A DNA stretch of 64,000 nucleotides from a bacterium HR11 (lineage in GTDB: Bacteria; Acidobacteriota; HRBIN11). The notes beneath the pieces were generated by a model. That model ran no database searches. It was given only the letters and a program-made list of their open reading frames with translations, and was not told the origin of the DNA. Of this stretch, positions 28,390-36,048 are shown in pieces; positions within the stretch are counted from its first letter, which is position 1, and each line of letters opens with the position of its first letter. The stretch covers positions 1-64,000 of the forward strand of contig BEHN01000002.1 of NCBI GenBank assembly GCA_002898535.1, in the 5' to 3' direction. A program made the position numbers and the translations under genes.

Positions 28390-28545
28390 ATTGGGGCGAT
28401 TCGGCAGTTCGGCCATTCGGCCGATGGGCCGTTGTCATCCAAGCCCCGCTCGGGCCAGCGGGGCTTGGCTGTTATTTCGCATCCCCATCCTGCATCTTGC
28501 ATCCCGCATCCCGCATCCTGTATCCTGCATCTCGCACCTTGGGAG
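28390..28545. repeat. Octamer block plus CATCCCG heptamer array
   Basis: GCGATTCGGCAGTTCGGCC (28398-28416) is followed by heptamers CATCCTG, CATCTTG, CATCCCG, CATCCCG, CATCCTG, TATCCTG and CATCTCG (28483-28535). It ends just before GGGAGAGGGGAGG, the pruA ribosome-binding site. Confidence 0.85.
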
Positions 28546-28559
28546 AGGGGAGGCGTGCC

Positions 28560-30110
28560 ATGAACGTACCGCCCTTCCGGAACGAACCGTTCACGGACTT
28601 TTCGAATCCGGAAAACCGTCGCCGCATGGAGGAAGCCCTCCGGCAGGTCGAGGCTCAACTGGGCCGGGAGTACCCCTTGATCATCGGGGACCAAGAGATT
28701 TACACGAACGAGAAGCTTTACTCTTACAATCCCTCGCAGAAGGACCAAGTCGTCGGCATCTTCCAGAAGGCCCAGCCCGAACACGTGGACAGGGCCCTCG
28801 AGGCCGCCTGGGCGGCCTTCGAGACCTGGCGATGGCTCCCGCCGGAGGAGCGGGCGGCCGTCCTCTTCCGGGCCGCCCGCCTCGCCCGGGACCGGAAGTT
28901 CGAGCTCATCGCCTGGCAGGTCTTCGAGGTCGGCAAGAACTGGGCCGAGGCCGACGCCGACGTGGCGGAGACGATCGACTATCTGGAATTCTACGGCCGG
29001 GAGATGCTCCGCTACGGGGCGCCCCAGCCACTGACGCCCTTCCCCGGCGAGGTCAACGAGTACCACTACATCCCCCTCGGGGCCGGGGCCGTCATCCCGC
29101 CGTGGAACTTCCCGATGGCCATCCTTGGAGGGATGACGACGGCGGCCGTCGTCACGGGGAACACGGTCGTCCTGAAGCCGTCCAGCGACTCGCCAGCCGT
29201 CGGGTATCAGTACGTGCGGCTCATGCAGGAGGCGGGCCTCCCGCCGGGCGTCATCAACTTCGTGACGGGCGCCGGCGGGGCCATCGGCGACTACCTCGTG
29301 ACCCATCCCCGGACGCGCTTTATCGCCTTCACGGGGTCGATGGAGGTCGGGTGCCGGATTTACGAGCTCGCCGCCAAGGTCCAACGGGGCCAGATTTGGC
29401 TCAAGCGGGTCATCGCCGAGATGGGCGGCAAGGACGCCATCATCGTCGACCGGGAGGTCCCCGACCTGGACGAGGCCGTCCGGGCCGTCGTCGTGTCGGC
29501 CTTCGGCTTTCAGGGTCAGAAGTGCTCGGCTTGCTCCCGCCTCATCCTGGACGAGGCCATCTACGACGAATTTCTCCGGCGGCTCGTCGCCCAGGTCGAG
29601 GCCATCGAGGTCGGCCCGGCCCGGGACAACTACTTCATGGGGCCGGTCATTAATGCGGCCGCCGAGAAAAAGATCTTGGAGTACATCGAGATCGGTAAGA
29701 AAGAAGGCCGTCTCGTCGCCGGCGGCCGGAAGGCCGAGGGAAACGGCTACTTCATCCGGCCGACGGTCTTCGCCGACGTCGACCCGAAGGCCCGCATCGC
29801 CCAGGAGGAAATCTTCGGGCCTGTCCTGGCCGTCTTGAAGGCCCGGGACTTTGACCACGCCCTGGCGATCGCCAACGACACGATCTACGGCCTGACGGGG
29901 TCGGTCTTCACCCGGAATCGGGAGAAGATCCTGAAGGCCAAGCGGTACTTCCACTGCGGGAACCTGTACATCAACCGCAAGTGCACGGGGGCGTTGGTCG
30001 ACGTCCATCCCTTCGGCGGTTTCAACATGTCGGGGACTGATTCGAAGGCCGGCGGGCGGGACTACCTCCTGCTGTTCTTGCAGGGCAAGTCGATTTCGGA
30101 GAAGGTATAA
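28560..30110 (+). CDS. pruA: L-glutamate gamma-semialdehyde (P5C) dehydrogenase
   Basis: The protein has 516 residues, the RocA-type length. It oxidises glutamate semialdehyde to glutamate, the second step of proline catabolism. Motifs are the N-terminal YPLIIGDQEI, VIPPWNFPMAIL, VLKPSSDSP, the active-site Cys in AFGFQGQKCSACSRLIL, the general base in AEMGGKD, and EEIFGPVLAV. No proline dehydrogenase is adjacent. A TATAAT overlaps its stop codon (30106-30111) and may serve the next gene. Confidence 0.95.
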   Translation: MNVPPFRNEPFTDFSNPENRRRMEEALRQVEAQLGREYPLIIGDQEIYTNEKLYSYNPSQKDQVVGIFQKAQPEHVDRALEAAWAAFETWRWLPPEERAAVLFRAARLARDRKFELIAWQVFEVGKNWAEADADVAETIDYLEFYGREMLRYGAPQPLTPFPGEVNEYHYIPLGAGAVIPPWNFPMAILGGMTTAAVVTGNTVVLKPSSDSPAVGYQYVRLMQEAGLPPGVINFVTGAGGAIGDYLVTHPRTRFIAFTGSMEVGCRIYELAAKVQRGQIWLKRVIAEMGGKDAIIVDREVPDLDEAVRAVVVSAFGFQGQKCSACSRLILDEAIYDEFLRRLVAQVEAIEVGPARDNYFMGPVINAAAEKKILEYIEIGKKEGRLVAGGRKAEGNGYFIRPTVFADVDPKARIAQEEIFGPVLAVLKARDFDHALAIANDTIYGLTGSVFTRNREKILKAKRYFHCGNLYINRKCTGALVDVHPFGGFNMSGTDSKAGGRDYLLLFLQGKSISEKV

Positions 30111-31118: not shown

Positions 31119-31171
31119 CCTGGGTCGCTGGGGTCAGGGATGCCCGACCGCGTGGAACGGAAGGGGGCTGG

Positions 31172-31212
31172 AGCCGTCTGATCCGTCCGATCCGACCGAT
31201 CCGTCTGATCCG
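31172..31212. repeat. GATCCG nonamer array
   Basis: Units CTGATCCGT, CCGATCCGA, CCGATCCGT and CTGATCCGA form a distinct unit family in the pre-FTCD spacer. Confidence 0.75.
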
Positions 31213-31265
31213 AGACGCCGCACTCCCCCTCTCGCATTGCCTGACCCTCGACCCCCTGACCTCCG

Positions 31266-32654
31266 ATGATGCGGATCATCGAGTGCGTCCCGAACGTCAG
31301 CGAGGGCCGGCGGGCGGAGGTCCTCGACGCGTTCATCCGCCTCCTGCAAGCCCAGCCCGGCGTCCTGCTCCTGGACTATCACGCCGACCCGGACCACAAC
31401 CGGACCGTCTTCACGCTGATCGGCGACGGCCCCGCTCTCCTGTCGGCCATGCTGGCCCTCTACGAGAAGGCCGTCGAGCTCATCGACATGCGCCAACACC
31501 GGGGCGAGCACCCCCGGGCCGGCGCCGTGGACGTCTGCCCCTTTGTGCCCATCGCCGGGGCCACGATGGAAGACTGCGTGGCCCTGGCCCGCGAGTTGGG
31601 CCGCCAAGTCGCCGAACGATTCCAGATCCCCGTCTTCTTGTACGCCCACGCCGCTACACGGGAAGATCGGCGGGAGCTTCCCAACATCCGAAAGGGCGAG
31701 TTCGAGGGCTGGTTCGAGAAGATCAAGGACCCGAACTGGAAGCCCGACTTCGGGCCGGACCGCGTCCATCCGACGGCGGGCATCACGGTCATCGGTGCCC
31801 GGCCGCCCCTGATCGCCTACAACGTGAACTTAGGGACGGCCGACCTCGCCGTCGCCGACCGCATCGCTCGGGCCATCCGCTTCTCCAGCGGCGGCTTCCG
31901 GAACGTCCAGGCCCGGGGCATGAAGCTGGAAGCCCGCCAGCAGGTCCAGGTGTCGATGAACCTGCTGGACTTCCGCCAGACGCCTATCCACCGGGTCTTC
32001 GAGGTCATCCGGGCCGAAGCCGAGCGCTTCGGCGTGCCCGTCGTGGGCTCCGAAATCGTCGGTCTCGTCCCCCTGGAGGCCATCGCCCAGGCGGCGGACT
32101 TCTACCTCCGGCTGGAGAACTTCTCCATCGACCAGGTCCTGGAGTGGCGAATCCAGCAGGCCCTCGCCGAACGCCCGGCCCCACCGGCGGCCCCCTCGCC
32201 GCCGACCCCCGGCCCCCGGCCGCGGGCCCTGCGGCGGGTCCTGATGAGCCTGGTCACCCGCGCCGTCGAGGCCCGTCTGGAGGATGCGGACATCCTCGAA
32301 TGGCTCCGACGCTTTCGATGGCCCGACGGTCAGGTGCGTTGTCCCCACTGTGGAAGCGCCCAGGTCCGGGCCTATCGGTCGTCGTCCCGTCGCCGAGTCG
32401 TCTTCACCTATCGGTGCCGGTCCTGCCGCCGTCGGTTCAACGACAAGACGGGCACCGTCTTTGCCCAGACGCGTCTTCCGATGGCTCGTTGGTTGGCGGC
32501 CGCCCTTCTCATTGAGCTCGGTGCCGGTCGCCGGAGCCTCCAACGCTACCTGGGGGTCGACCGGGCCACGGCCCGCCGCATGTGGAACGGCCTGACCCGG
32601 GACGCCCGACTCCGCCAGGCCATGGTCCGCTACATGGAGAGCGCCCTGGCGTAG
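31266..32654 (+). CDS. Glutamate formimidoyltransferase fused to an IS1595-type zinc ribbon/HTH
   Basis: The protein is 462 residues in one uninterrupted frame (ATG 31266 or 31269). Residues 1-~300 are a complete FTCD formiminotransferase: MRIIECVPNVSEGRR, DYHADPDHNRTVFTLIGD, DMRQHRGEHPRAGAVDVCPF, RELPNIRKGEFEG, PTAGITVIGARPPLIAYNVN. A Pro-rich linker (~305-320) leads to ~140 residues resembling the N-terminus of IS1595 transposases: RRFRWPDGQVRCPHCGS, YRCRSCRRRFNDKTGTVFA, LPMARWLAAALLIELGAG and an HTH-like LQRYLGVDRATARRMWNGL. The DDE nuclease domain is absent. Formiminotransferase acts in histidine degradation, but no hut genes are here. Confidence 0.88.
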   Translation: MMRIIECVPNVSEGRRAEVLDAFIRLLQAQPGVLLLDYHADPDHNRTVFTLIGDGPALLSAMLALYEKAVELIDMRQHRGEHPRAGAVDVCPFVPIAGATMEDCVALARELGRQVAERFQIPVFLYAHAATREDRRELPNIRKGEFEGWFEKIKDPNWKPDFGPDRVHPTAGITVIGARPPLIAYNVNLGTADLAVADRIARAIRFSSGGFRNVQARGMKLEARQQVQVSMNLLDFRQTPIHRVFEVIRAEAERFGVPVVGSEIVGLVPLEAIAQAADFYLRLENFSIDQVLEWRIQQALAERPAPPAAPSPPTPGPRPRALRRVLMSLVTRAVEARLEDADILEWLRRFRWPDGQVRCPHCGSAQVRAYRSSSRRRVVFTYRCRSCRRRFNDKTGTVFAQTRLPMARWLAAALLIELGAGRRSLQRYLGVDRATARRMWNGLTRDARLRQAMVRYMESALA

Positions 32655-32672
32655 AGGGATGCGGGGTCCGGG

Positions 32673-35324
32673 ATGCGAGACGCGGGGCACGCAGGGTGTG
32701 GACGGCCGTGGTTCGTGGGAGCCGGCGTCCTGGCGGGCGCCGCCGGGGCGGTCCTCCTCTACTGGGCGCTTCAGGGCTTTGTCCCCGGCCGGGCCTGGCT
32801 CCGGGCCGACGGGGACCCGACGCTGATCGCGGCCCTCCTCAAGTGGCACGGCCGGACGCTGACCGAGGGCCGCTTCCGGTTTGCGGACCCGCCCTTCTTC
32901 CATCCGTATCGGTCCGTCGCCTTCTTCACGGAGAACTTCATCGGCCCGGGCATCCTGCTGAGCTTCCTGCACCGGGCGCCGATGGAGGTCGTCTACACGT
33001 GGGCCCTCTTCATCGGTCACGTCACGACGTTCGCCGCCGGTATGTATCTATTCCGACAAATCCCGGTCGCCTGGCCGGTCGCCGGCCTGGCCGCCTCGCT
33101 CCATACGTTCAACTACACCCGTCTGCTCTTGGGGTATTCCCATCTCCACGTCGTGTACGACGCCCTGGCCCTGCTGGCCGTCGCCGAACTCATCCGGTGG
33201 TATCGGACCCGTCGGATGGGGGCCGCCATCATCGCATGGTCGGCCCTGGCCGTTCAGTTCTTCTTCAGCGTTCACATGACCTTCTTCGGGACGGTCGTCA
33301 TCGGGATTTTGGCCGCCGCCGCCCTCGTCCACCGTCGAGGATGGGCCTGGCGGCTGGCGACGGTCGCCTGGCTCCTGACGGTGGGCGCCTACCTGCTATG
33401 GGTTTCCGCGCCCTACCGACGAATCCAGGCGTGGGTCGGCTATCAGCCGGACCTGGGGCCCTCGGCTTCGGCCCATCTCGTGACCCTGCTCGTCCCGCCG
33501 CCGGGCTCCTTCTGGTATACCCACGGGCCGGCCCTGTTCCGACGCGTCGACGCCCGCGTATGGGAAGAGGGCGGTGTGGCTTTCCCCGGCTTTCTGCTGA
33601 TGGTCCTGTTCCTGGTCAGCCTCGTCTGGGGCTGGCGACGGCCGGCGATCCGGTGGGGGGCGGTCGTGGCCGCCTTTTGCGCGCTGGCCGCCCTCGGCCC
33701 CGTCGTCTTCTGGGACTACCGCCACCCCTTGGGACGGAACCCCCTGTATGCCGTCGTGGAAGCCATCCCGGCCCTCCGGGCCTTCCGGGTCCCCCAGCGG
33801 TGGTACTACGCGGCCACGGTCCCGATGGCGTGGAACGCGGCTGTCTTCCTGGAAGCTCTCCTCCGCCGATGGAACCGTCGGGCGGTCACGGCCGGCCTGG
33901 CCCTGCTCTGGCTTGGCCTGGTCTGGACGGACGCCCGGATCCCGCCCCGGGCCTATATCACGCCGGTCGAGGAGTCCATCCATGCGACCATCCGACCCGG
34001 CGAGGTCGTCGCCGAACTGCCGATGGGCCATCCGGATTTCATCCGGTGGCGGAACCCGTACTTCACGATGGTTCGAGCCGTGGACCGGGGATTCCGGACG
34101 GTGGACGGCGTGGCGGCCTTCGAACCGCCGATTCCGGCCGAGCTGGCGCGGCACTACCGCCTGGACGGCTATGCCCTGCAAGTCCTGGCCGCCCTGGGCG
34201 TCCGGCGGCTCATCCTCCACTGCCATGACTATCGGCGGGCCGATATGCCGGAGCTGTGCGACCACAACCGACGGGTCCTCATGGAGGCCGGGTACCGAAC
34301 GGACCGGATAGAAGCCCAGGACGTCTCGATGGTCGCCCCGGGAGCGTTGACTCGGCCCCGCGTCGTCCTGGACCGCCTCGAACTGCGGGACGTCCAAGTC
34401 ACGGCCCGACCCGTCGCGCCAGACTCGACCCGGTGGTACATCGAACTGAAGCCCGTCGTCCCTTACGTCGTGGCTTATCCGCGGCGGTGCTACCCGGTCA
34501 CGGTCCAGGGCCTCGACGCAAACGGCCGCCGGACGGGCGAGGCCCGCCCCTGCGTGTCCTTCCCGGGCGGCATCCTGTGGGAAGGACCCCAAAGCCTCAC
34601 GGTGGACTTGCCGGTCGGAACCCGACAGATCCGAGTCGGCGAGGGATGGCGACCCCGACTGTGGCGATGGACGACCGTGGGAAATTCGGCAGTCCGGCAA
34701 TTCGGGAATTCGGCAGTTTGGGAGTTCAGCAATCCGGCATCAACGATAGATCCCCATTCCTCATTCCTCATTCCTAGACGGCCCTTACTCTTCCCACACG
34801 GTAAAGATCAGGGGGACCGCCGGGGCCCCCACGGACTCGACGTCGACCCGGATCCACCGGGCGACGTCTTCAGGACGCCGGACGCCCCGACAGGGACCCC
34901 GCCGCCATTCGAGTCGATGCCAGGCCATCTGGACCTTCTGGTTACCGTTTTCCCACGTCCCGGTGATGGCTACGGGGAACGACCCGCCGGCGGCATACGT
35001 GGAGACCCACCGAAAGCGGAGGCCGGCCGGATGGGTCCAGGCGCCCCCGAGGATGCGGTCATCCGGGGTACGGACCTCCAGTTCAAAGCGCCATTCGCCC
35101 CATTGGCCGATACGGTGCAGACGTCCCGGGTCCTCGGGGTCCGGTCGGTCCTCCCAGACGGCCCCGCCGGCGCGGAGCTGAGTCTCGTCGGGCCAGCGGC
35201 CTTGAAGCCAGTCCCAGAAGGCTTCGCCGGTGAGCGGCAGGCCCAGGACGGCCTGCCAGCCGTCGGGCGTGTTCGTCCACGCCCACCACCGACGCCGGTC
35301 CGGGGCCAGCAGGTCCACGCCTGA
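32673..35324 (+). CDS. GT-C-like integral membrane protein, 3' end read through repeats
   Basis: About ten membrane segments occupy residues ~10-420 (AGAAGAVLLYWALQGFV, GHVTTFAAGMYLF, FLLMVLFLVSLVWGW and others), followed by a soluble C-terminal part (EEVVAELP-like strand, VRAVDRGFRTVDGVAAFEPP, LGVRRLILHCHDY). It resembles GT-C-type polyprenyl-sugar transferases; substrate unknown. The start lies in GATGCGG heptamers. From ~34681 the frame passes through an octamer array and continues antisense through the next gene. The functional protein probably ends near residue ~690; the native stop seems lost. Confidence 0.65.
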   Translation: MRDAGHAGCGRPWFVGAGVLAGAAGAVLLYWALQGFVPGRAWLRADGDPTLIAALLKWHGRTLTEGRFRFADPPFFHPYRSVAFFTENFIGPGILLSFLHRAPMEVVYTWALFIGHVTTFAAGMYLFRQIPVAWPVAGLAASLHTFNYTRLLLGYSHLHVVYDALALLAVAELIRWYRTRRMGAAIIAWSALAVQFFFSVHMTFFGTVVIGILAAAALVHRRGWAWRLATVAWLLTVGAYLLWVSAPYRRIQAWVGYQPDLGPSASAHLVTLLVPPPGSFWYTHGPALFRRVDARVWEEGGVAFPGFLLMVLFLVSLVWGWRRPAIRWGAVVAAFCALAALGPVVFWDYRHPLGRNPLYAVVEAIPALRAFRVPQRWYYAATVPMAWNAAVFLEALLRRWNRRAVTAGLALLWLGLVWTDARIPPRAYITPVEESIHATIRPGEVVAELPMGHPDFIRWRNPYFTMVRAVDRGFRTVDGVAAFEPPIPAELARHYRLDGYALQVLAALGVRRLILHCHDYRRADMPELCDHNRRVLMEAGYRTDRIEAQDVSMVAPGALTRPRVVLDRLELRDVQVTARPVAPDSTRWYIELKPVVPYVVAYPRRCYPVTVQGLDANGRRTGEARPCVSFPGGILWEGPQSLTVDLPVGTRQIRVGEGWRPRLWRWTTVGNSAVRQFGNSAVWEFSNPASTIDPHSSFLIPRRPLLFPHGKDQGDRRGPHGLDVDPDPPGDVFRTPDAPTGTPPPFESMPGHLDLLVTVFPRPGDGYGERPAGGIRGDPPKAEAGRMGPGAPEDAVIRGTDLQFKAPFAPLADTVQTSRVLGVRSVLPDGPAGAELSLVGPAALKPVPEGFAGERQAQDGLPAVGRVRPRPPPTPVRGQQVHA
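34681..34745. repeat. Octamer array at the 3' end of the membrane-protein gene
   Basis: Units CAGTCCGG, CAATTCGG, GAATTCGG, CAGTTTGG, GAGTTCAG and CAATCCGG are followed by CATTCCT units near 34755. Translated in frame it gives GNSAVRQFGNSAVWEFSN. Confidence 0.85.
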
Positions 35325-35666
35325 AGGGTCCATGACCAGGGCGAGGCGGCTCTGGCCAAAGTCGTCCGTCCAGAGAGCCGAGCCGACGGGGCCGCTCCAG
35401 CAGGCTTCCCACCGTAAGCGAACCGGCGGGCGGCCCGACTCCTGCCAGCGCCACCGGGCCTGAACCTGCCAGCCGAGGACCGCCGGCCCCTGAGGGAATC
35501 GACGGACCCATGGGCAGTGGACCGTCGTCAGGGCGACCCAGACCGTCCAAAGGAGAATGGCGAGTGGCGAAGGGCGAAGGGCGAGTAGCGAACGGCGAAG
35601 GGCGAAGGGCGAAGGGCGAGTGGCGAGTGGCGAGTGGCGAAGGGCGAAGGGCGAATAGATCTCCAT
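34785..35666 (-). CDS. Exported LolB/DUF4292-like protein with repeat-encoded N-terminus
   Basis: The protein has 293 residues. Residues 5-37 are encoded by a GCGA heptamer array and show heptapeptide periodicity (SPFALRH, SPLATRP, SPFALRR). A hydrophobic segment (LAILLWTVWVALTTV) follows, so the start looks like a long signal anchor. The body (RWEACWSGPVGSALWTDDFG, LLAPDRRRWWAWTN, VLGLPLTGEAFWDWLQGRWP) resembles lipoprotein LolB/DUF4292-type half-barrels; this is tentative. Possible Shine-Dalgarno AGGAAG upstream of ATG 35666. It overlaps the antisense tail of the previous frame. Confidence 0.6.
   Translation of the reverse strand: MEIYSPFALRHSPLATRPSPFALRRSLLALRPSPLAILLWTVWVALTTVHCPWVRRFPQGPAVLGWQVQARWRWQESGRPPVRLRWEACWSGPVGSALWTDDFGQSRLALVMDPSGVDLLAPDRRRWWAWTNTPDGWQAVLGLPLTGEAFWDWLQGRWPDETQLRAGGAVWEDRPDPEDPGRLHRIGQWGEWRFELEVRTPDDRILGGAWTHPAGLRFRWVSTYAAGGSFPVAITGTWENGNQKVQMAWHRLEWRRGPCRGVRRPEDVARWIRVDVESVGAPAVPLIFTVWEE
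35555..35662. repeat. GGCGAAG/GGCGAGT heptamer array, coding
   Basis: About 15 units (GGCGAGT, GGCGAAG, GGCGAAG, AGCGAAC, GGCGAGT) have variation almost confined to two positions. It forms the N-terminal coding sequence of the minus-strand gene. Confidence 0.9.
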
Positions 35667-35690
35667 TTTCCTATCTTCCTACCTACTACC

Positions 35691-36048
35691 TTATCAGGGC
35701 CGTTCGGTTGGGAGAAATGCGGTTCCCCTCCGGGAAAACGGTGGCCCGGCGGTCTCGATTTTTCAAGATGCCTCCGGATGACCCGGCCGTGACGGGCGGT
35801 TCACGCGGATGATGCCCGCATGACGGCGGGTTCTCTACGGAAGGCACCGGCATGACGGCCGGTGTGCCGGGGATAGACGCCCGTCGCCCGACCGGCCCAT
35901 CGGCCGACCGGCCGACCTGCCCACCTGCCTATCTGCCCATCTGCCTATCTGCCGACTGCCCATCTGCCGAATGCTTGAAAAATCGTACTTCCCGGGGGAT
36001 GGGCAAGGTTGTTCCGACACCATTCTCACGGGGCGAACGGATCGGTTA
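35691..36048. mobile_element. Composite: R75 inverted pair around REP-like module and octamer array
   Basis: A reverse R75 (35691-35767, starting TTATCAGGGCCGTTCGG) is followed by a full REP-like module (35771-35892, with CCGGCATGACGGCCGG), a CTGCC octamer array (35893-35972) and a forward R75 (35973-36048, ending GCGAACGGATCGGTTA). The outer R75 end includes the comF stop codon. This is the clearest example of R75 acting as long terminal inverted repeats. Confidence 0.75.

Follow-up and report, generated by a model that had tools for sequence, protein, structure and literature searches.

A glutamate formimidoyltransferase joined to a zinc ribbon and helix-turn-helix of IS1595 transposase type in Acidobacteriota

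In the genome of bacterium HR11 (Acidobacteriota), a full glutamate formimidoyltransferase (FtcD) is followed in the same frame by a proline-rich linker and about 124 residues resembling the zinc ribbon and helix-turn-helix (HTH) of IS1595 transposases, without the DDE domain. The enzyme family and the type of DNA-binding module are both known; their combination is without precedent found in the literature. Purifying selection shows that the C-terminal module is needed, although selection alone does not imply DNA binding. It is well supported that the module is a domesticated DNA-binding part of a transposase. On balance, and with some reserve, we read the whole as a bifunctional protein resembling trigger enzymes.

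Architecture and the enzyme part

The window is the whole stretch of DNA analysed here, 64,000 nucleotides of contig BEHN01000002.1. The fusion ORF occupies 31266-32654 (+), a single frame of 462 codons closed by a TAG stop, with no interruption. Its parts are as follows.

31266..32165 (+): complete FtcD enzyme part, residues 1-300 (TIGR02024, Pfam FTCD_N and FTCD, match to 1tt9, His82)
32166..32243 (+): Pro/Arg-rich linker, residues 301-326 (composition, with 9 Pro; low pLDDT)
32244..32330 (+): N-terminal helical extension of the module, residues 327-355 (IS1595 alignment; two model helices)
32331..32450 (+): zinc ribbon, residues 356-395, C359-x2-C362 ... C384-x2-C387 (PF12760, 1.6e-10; Cys columns; beta strands in the model)
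32451..32615 (+): LPM-RW helix and HTH region, residues 396-450 (IS1595 alignment; model helices; dN/dS 0.07-0.16)
32616..32651 (+): unconstrained tail, residues 451-462, ahead of the TAG (pairwise dN/dS 0.3-1.2 over 12 codons)

The enzyme part scores 428.7 bits against TIGR02024, the NCBIfam FtcD equivalog (cut-off 221.25; residues 1-297). It also matches Pfam FTCD_N (5e-73, residues 4-179), Pfam FTCD (5e-30, residues 182-288) and the solved rat-type FTCD 1tt9 (E 1.3e-79). In a comparison with 28 relatives, the catalytic-type His82 is invariant and the surrounding HPR-G-DV-PF residues are invariant or nearly so. The nearest free-standing FtcDs (TIGR02024; EC 2.1.2.5) are 55-60% identical to the enzyme part. 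With this score and the open frame of 462 codons, the original prediction of a complete enzyme continuing without a stop through a Pro-rich linker into a transposase-like part is borne out.

No other FtcD was detected in the genome of the fusion, and HutH, HutU and a separate FTCD_C cyclodeaminase gene are present elsewhere in it. For these reasons the enzyme part, as judged from its sequence, has very probably kept its role in histidine breakdown. The hut genes are scattered (HutU on contig C24, FTCD_C on C42 and HutH on C2, some 124 kb downstream), so they form no operon that would point to a regulatory target. A gene two places upstream of the fusion (28497-30110) is aldehyde-dehydrogenase-like and alignable at the same place in the two other genomes that carry the fusion. 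By sequence it is probably a 1-pyrroline-5-carboxylate dehydrogenase, another glutamate-forming step.

The module and its origin

The zinc ribbon matches Zn_ribbon_IS1595 (PF12760) at 1.6e-10 and 41.2 bits, against a curated cut-off of 25.4 bits (residues 339-389). From M327 to about residue 450, the module and the N-terminal half of IS1595 transposases align over their full length at 24-36% identity. M327 lies at or near their natural start in the alignment, and the fusion ORF stops about where their DDE domains begin. Columns that are invariant or nearly so in 34 sequences are kept in the module, including both Trp, the four Cys and a GT. The Pfam search found no PF12762 DDE domain in the fusion ORF. 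Four zinc cysteines and an HTH with no DDE domain had been proposed, and the description was exact: the cysteines are C359, C362, C384 and C387, and the HTH region is aligned with its IS1595 counterparts and helical in the model. Conservation extends to about residue 450, and the last 12 residues drift.

An AlphaFold2 model of the module has a mean pLDDT of 90 (residues 327-462) and shows the strands of the ribbon and, after them, a helical HTH region, with helices at 80-91, 96-103, 107-119 and 121-135 in the numbering of the module model. In Foldseek searches the ribbon resembles RNA polymerase II subunit I, and the helical part resembles TrpR, the DnaA DNA-binding domain and DeoR. These modelled resemblances are weak (all matches E > 0.1) but of the expected kind. 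A sequence search of the PDB with the module gave no relevant match. The module carries a net charge of +16 to +18, compared to a median of +9 (5-14) for IS1595 N-termini.

A whole IS1595-family transposase consists of the PF12760 ribbon, the HTH and the PF12762 DDE domain, of which the fusion shares only the N-terminal DNA-binding half. Unlike an IS1595 element, the module is joined to an enzyme, shows no flanking terminal repeats and has no copies elsewhere in the genus. We found no PF12762 domain in the genomes of the three species with the fusion (G000, which contains the window, G001 and G002), no second PF12760 ribbon above the Pfam cut-off in G000, and no plausible nearby pair of terminal inverted repeats bracketing the module. 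The original prediction had named a recent IS1595 insertion at this exact point as an outcome that would overturn it. With no DDE gene in three genomes and no bracketing repeats, no such insertion is seen. Recent insertion is ruled out by the absence of an IS1595 DDE in the genus together with the presence of the fusion in three species and the purifying selection on it. The proposal of a domesticated transposase part agrees with the shared fusion, the selection on the module and the missing DDE.

In the tree a long branch leads to the module (stem of 1.95 changes per site; support 100/100), whose place within IS1595 the tree does not give; its target specificity is therefore not readable from any known element. 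A module captured long ago that first changed fast and later came under constraint would fit such a stem. Since M327 coincides with the transposase start region, the simplest history would be that an IS1595-type element inserted at the 3' end of ftcD. It would have become fused in frame, with the joining sequence giving rise to the Pro-rich linker, and would have lost its DDE half.

An IS1595-type zinc ribbon and HTH without DDE also occurs as a stand-alone gene of about 132 residues in a different acidobacterial genus, g25, in four of its species (genomes G027, G051, G321 and G297). The loci are L170:1152-1550 (+) and L169:1936-2334 (-), and also L129 and L136. This gene is under purifying selection (dN/dS 0.07-0.20) and lies downstream of the same surface-protein-like gene in both loci read at length. 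It is a candidate for a second, independent domestication.

Distribution and selection

The comparison covers three species of one genus, each from a separate draft assembly. The same fusion is found in all of them, as a check of related genomes for this architecture was expected to reveal if the fusion were functional: it is 95% identical in G001 (JAUQPV010000054.1, Acidobacteriota MAG JZ-1.bins.94) and 90% identical in G002 (JANXAA010000123.1, SKYB104). The upstream and downstream neighbour genes are also the same in both. Two genomes of the same class but outside the genus (G003 and G004) have FtcDs of about 307-309 residues without the module, and these unfused relatives represent the 'before' state.

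Among 109 FtcD loci inspected, the module is limited to the genus. All other extensions of more than 60 residues at these loci have no CxxC pairs and read as FTCD_C cyclodeaminase (PxPGGGS motif). FTCD_C is thus the sole long C-terminal extension of the other surveyed FtcDs, whereas the fusion has a transposase-derived zinc ribbon and HTH. In a C-terminal search across 396 genomes from this phylum, IS1595-type ORFs elsewhere were whole transposases or short ORFs without DDE. Longer ORFs around other IS1595-like matches were mostly transposases plus upstream ORF sequence, and one was an unrelated peptidase-like protein. No second fusion of an IS1595-type module to an enzyme was present among the ORFs examined from the 396 genomes; the contig scan reaches close relatives of the module only, and distant fusions outside Acidobacteriota may exist.

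Over residues 327-450 the module has a dN/dS (Nei-Gojobori) of 0.136 between the window and G001, 0.135 between the window and G002 and 0.197 between G001 and G002, with upper bounds of 0.36 or less; the counts behind these values are small and come from three species of one genus, and the three pairs are not independent of one another. Neutral evolution is rejected (P about 1e-9 and 1e-4). The enzyme part has a dN/dS of 0.09-0.12, not significantly different from the module (P 0.45). C-terminal changes between the window and G002 number 9, 9 and 35 at the first, second and third codon positions, so that the third dominates. M327 and the zinc cysteines are unchanged across the three species. 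By comparison, constraint is absent from the last 12 residues; this shows where the selected domain ends and serves as an internal control.

The linker has a pLDDT of about 40-60 in the full-length model and is probably disordered. Its sole indel is a 15-nt in-frame deletion in G002, and the frame is open in all three species; the noncoding DNA around the fusion gene, unlike the linker, has many indels or is not alignable. A measurement of dN/dS in the C-terminal part had been proposed as a check on function, and the values obtained (0.13-0.20) are close to those of the enzyme. Together with the intact zinc site and the in-frame indel, they uphold the claim of a working domain rather than debris.

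Possible function

Enzymes that double as transcription factors are known, and so are host proteins derived from transposase DNA-binding domains. The DNA-binding module of PutA is a ribbon-helix-helix. Our trigger-enzyme-like reading of the fusion follows three precedents, InsA, PutA and BzdR. InsA of IS1 is a DDE-less zinc finger and HTH protein related to the transposase N-terminus that binds IS ends and represses (PMC12428005). It is a mobile-element protein without a metabolic enzyme, whereas the module of the fusion is enzyme-linked. PutA, an amino-acid catabolic enzyme whose route leads to glutamate, likewise carries a DNA-binding domain fused to it (PMC8249747). Its regulatory role is proven, whereas we infer one for the fusion, and the two DNA-binding modules are unrelated. 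BzdR has an enzyme-derived domain and a DNA-binding domain with a linker between them (PMC3602430). There the kinase activity is lost and the DNA-binding domain is N-terminal, whereas the enzyme of the fusion looks active and is the only copy. In the literature we found no report of an FtcD fused to a DNA-binding domain, of a domesticated IS1595 in bacteria, or of a bacterial metabolic enzyme with a transposase-derived DNA-binding part.

The original prediction suggested an enzyme that binds DNA or RNA and senses formimino-glutamate or folate, and a mechanism of this kind may be envisaged. The enzyme half, as the only FtcD detected, would act in histidine breakdown by passing the formimino group from N-formimino-glutamate to tetrahydrofolate. 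The probably disordered linker would tether it to the zinc ribbon and HTH from an IS1595-type transposase. The module would bind DNA, as InsA does, and would be dimerised by the enzyme part. Substrate or folate occupancy would alter DNA binding, and the enzyme would thereby tune transcription of target genes.

These targets probably do not include the fusion gene: autoregulation through its own promoter is not favoured. We compared the 250 bp upstream of the gene in the three species for shared words and inverted repeats. The longer shared words stem from the coding end of the gene before it. No dyad is shared with G002, and the noncoding stretch ahead of the fusion gene could not be aligned between the window and G002; these two observations argue against a conserved operator there.

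A wider picture is plausible but more tentative than the trigger-enzyme-like reading itself: a catabolic folate enzyme may have become a transcription factor by way of the IS1595 DNA-binding half, with DDE-less modules domesticated at least twice in Acidobacteriota, once fused and once stand-alone. If true, one-carbon and histidine flux would be read out directly on DNA by a transposase-derived bacterial trigger enzyme. As its pathway holds no second copy of the enzyme, the fusion lends itself to a direct test of how a mobile-element domain may turn into a host regulator.

The module could instead be kept for a non-regulatory job such as oligomerisation or a protein or RNA contact, for example docking of FtcD to cyclodeaminase or another partner. 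We consider this unlikely, though worth weighing. Purifying selection and conservation of the zinc site do not require DNA binding, and no operator-like element is conserved upstream. A need for docking is conceivable because FTCD_C is a separate gene here and fused to FtcD in other relatives; however, G003 and G004 have a separate cyclodeaminase and yet an unfused FtcD. The HTH region is conserved as much as the ribbon, and the charge of the module, far more basic than its transposase relatives, fits contact with nucleic acid.

It is rather improbable that the gene makes two products, the long fusion and an InsA-like zinc ribbon/HTH protein started at M327 (32244), with the latter as the DNA-binding regulator. 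M327 does coincide with the start region of IS1595 transposases and persists across the three species, and the stand-alone DDE-less relatives of 132 residues in another acidobacterial genus are under purifying selection. However, no purine-rich, Shine-Dalgarno-like sequence precedes M327, although the main start also has none, and in each of the three species the linker reads through without a stop or frame shift.

That the frame runs by accident into the decaying remains of an IS1595 element, debris in frame by chance, has very little probability. The module does end about where a DDE domain should begin, as in a truncated transposase, and IS1595 genes, including a broken one, occur in G003, a genome of the same class. 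Against this, neutrality is rejected at P about 1e-9, there is no frame-breaking indel, and the zinc site and HTH are intact in three species; given the three sequences as independent lineages, purifying selection refutes the debris reading. An assembly or binning artefact joining two genes, which the original prediction had also named as fatal to it, has a negligible chance and is refuted, all three genomes being draft but separate assemblies that share, at dS values of 0.15-0.48, the same junction on contigs that agree in gene order.

Short dispersed repeats fill the intergenic spacers of the genus (window 31150-31215 and 32655-32720; L031:7387-7663). They consist of CCGATCCG units and GGGATGCGAGATGCGGGATGC-like units, and the spacer at L031 has matches at numerous further positions in the window. 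At window positions 35549-35669, 34680-34735 and 35885-35945, units of 7-8 bp (GGCGAAG/GGCGAGT, GGCAATTC-like and GGCCGACC-like) are arrayed in tandem in DNA that is intergenic or at an ORF end.
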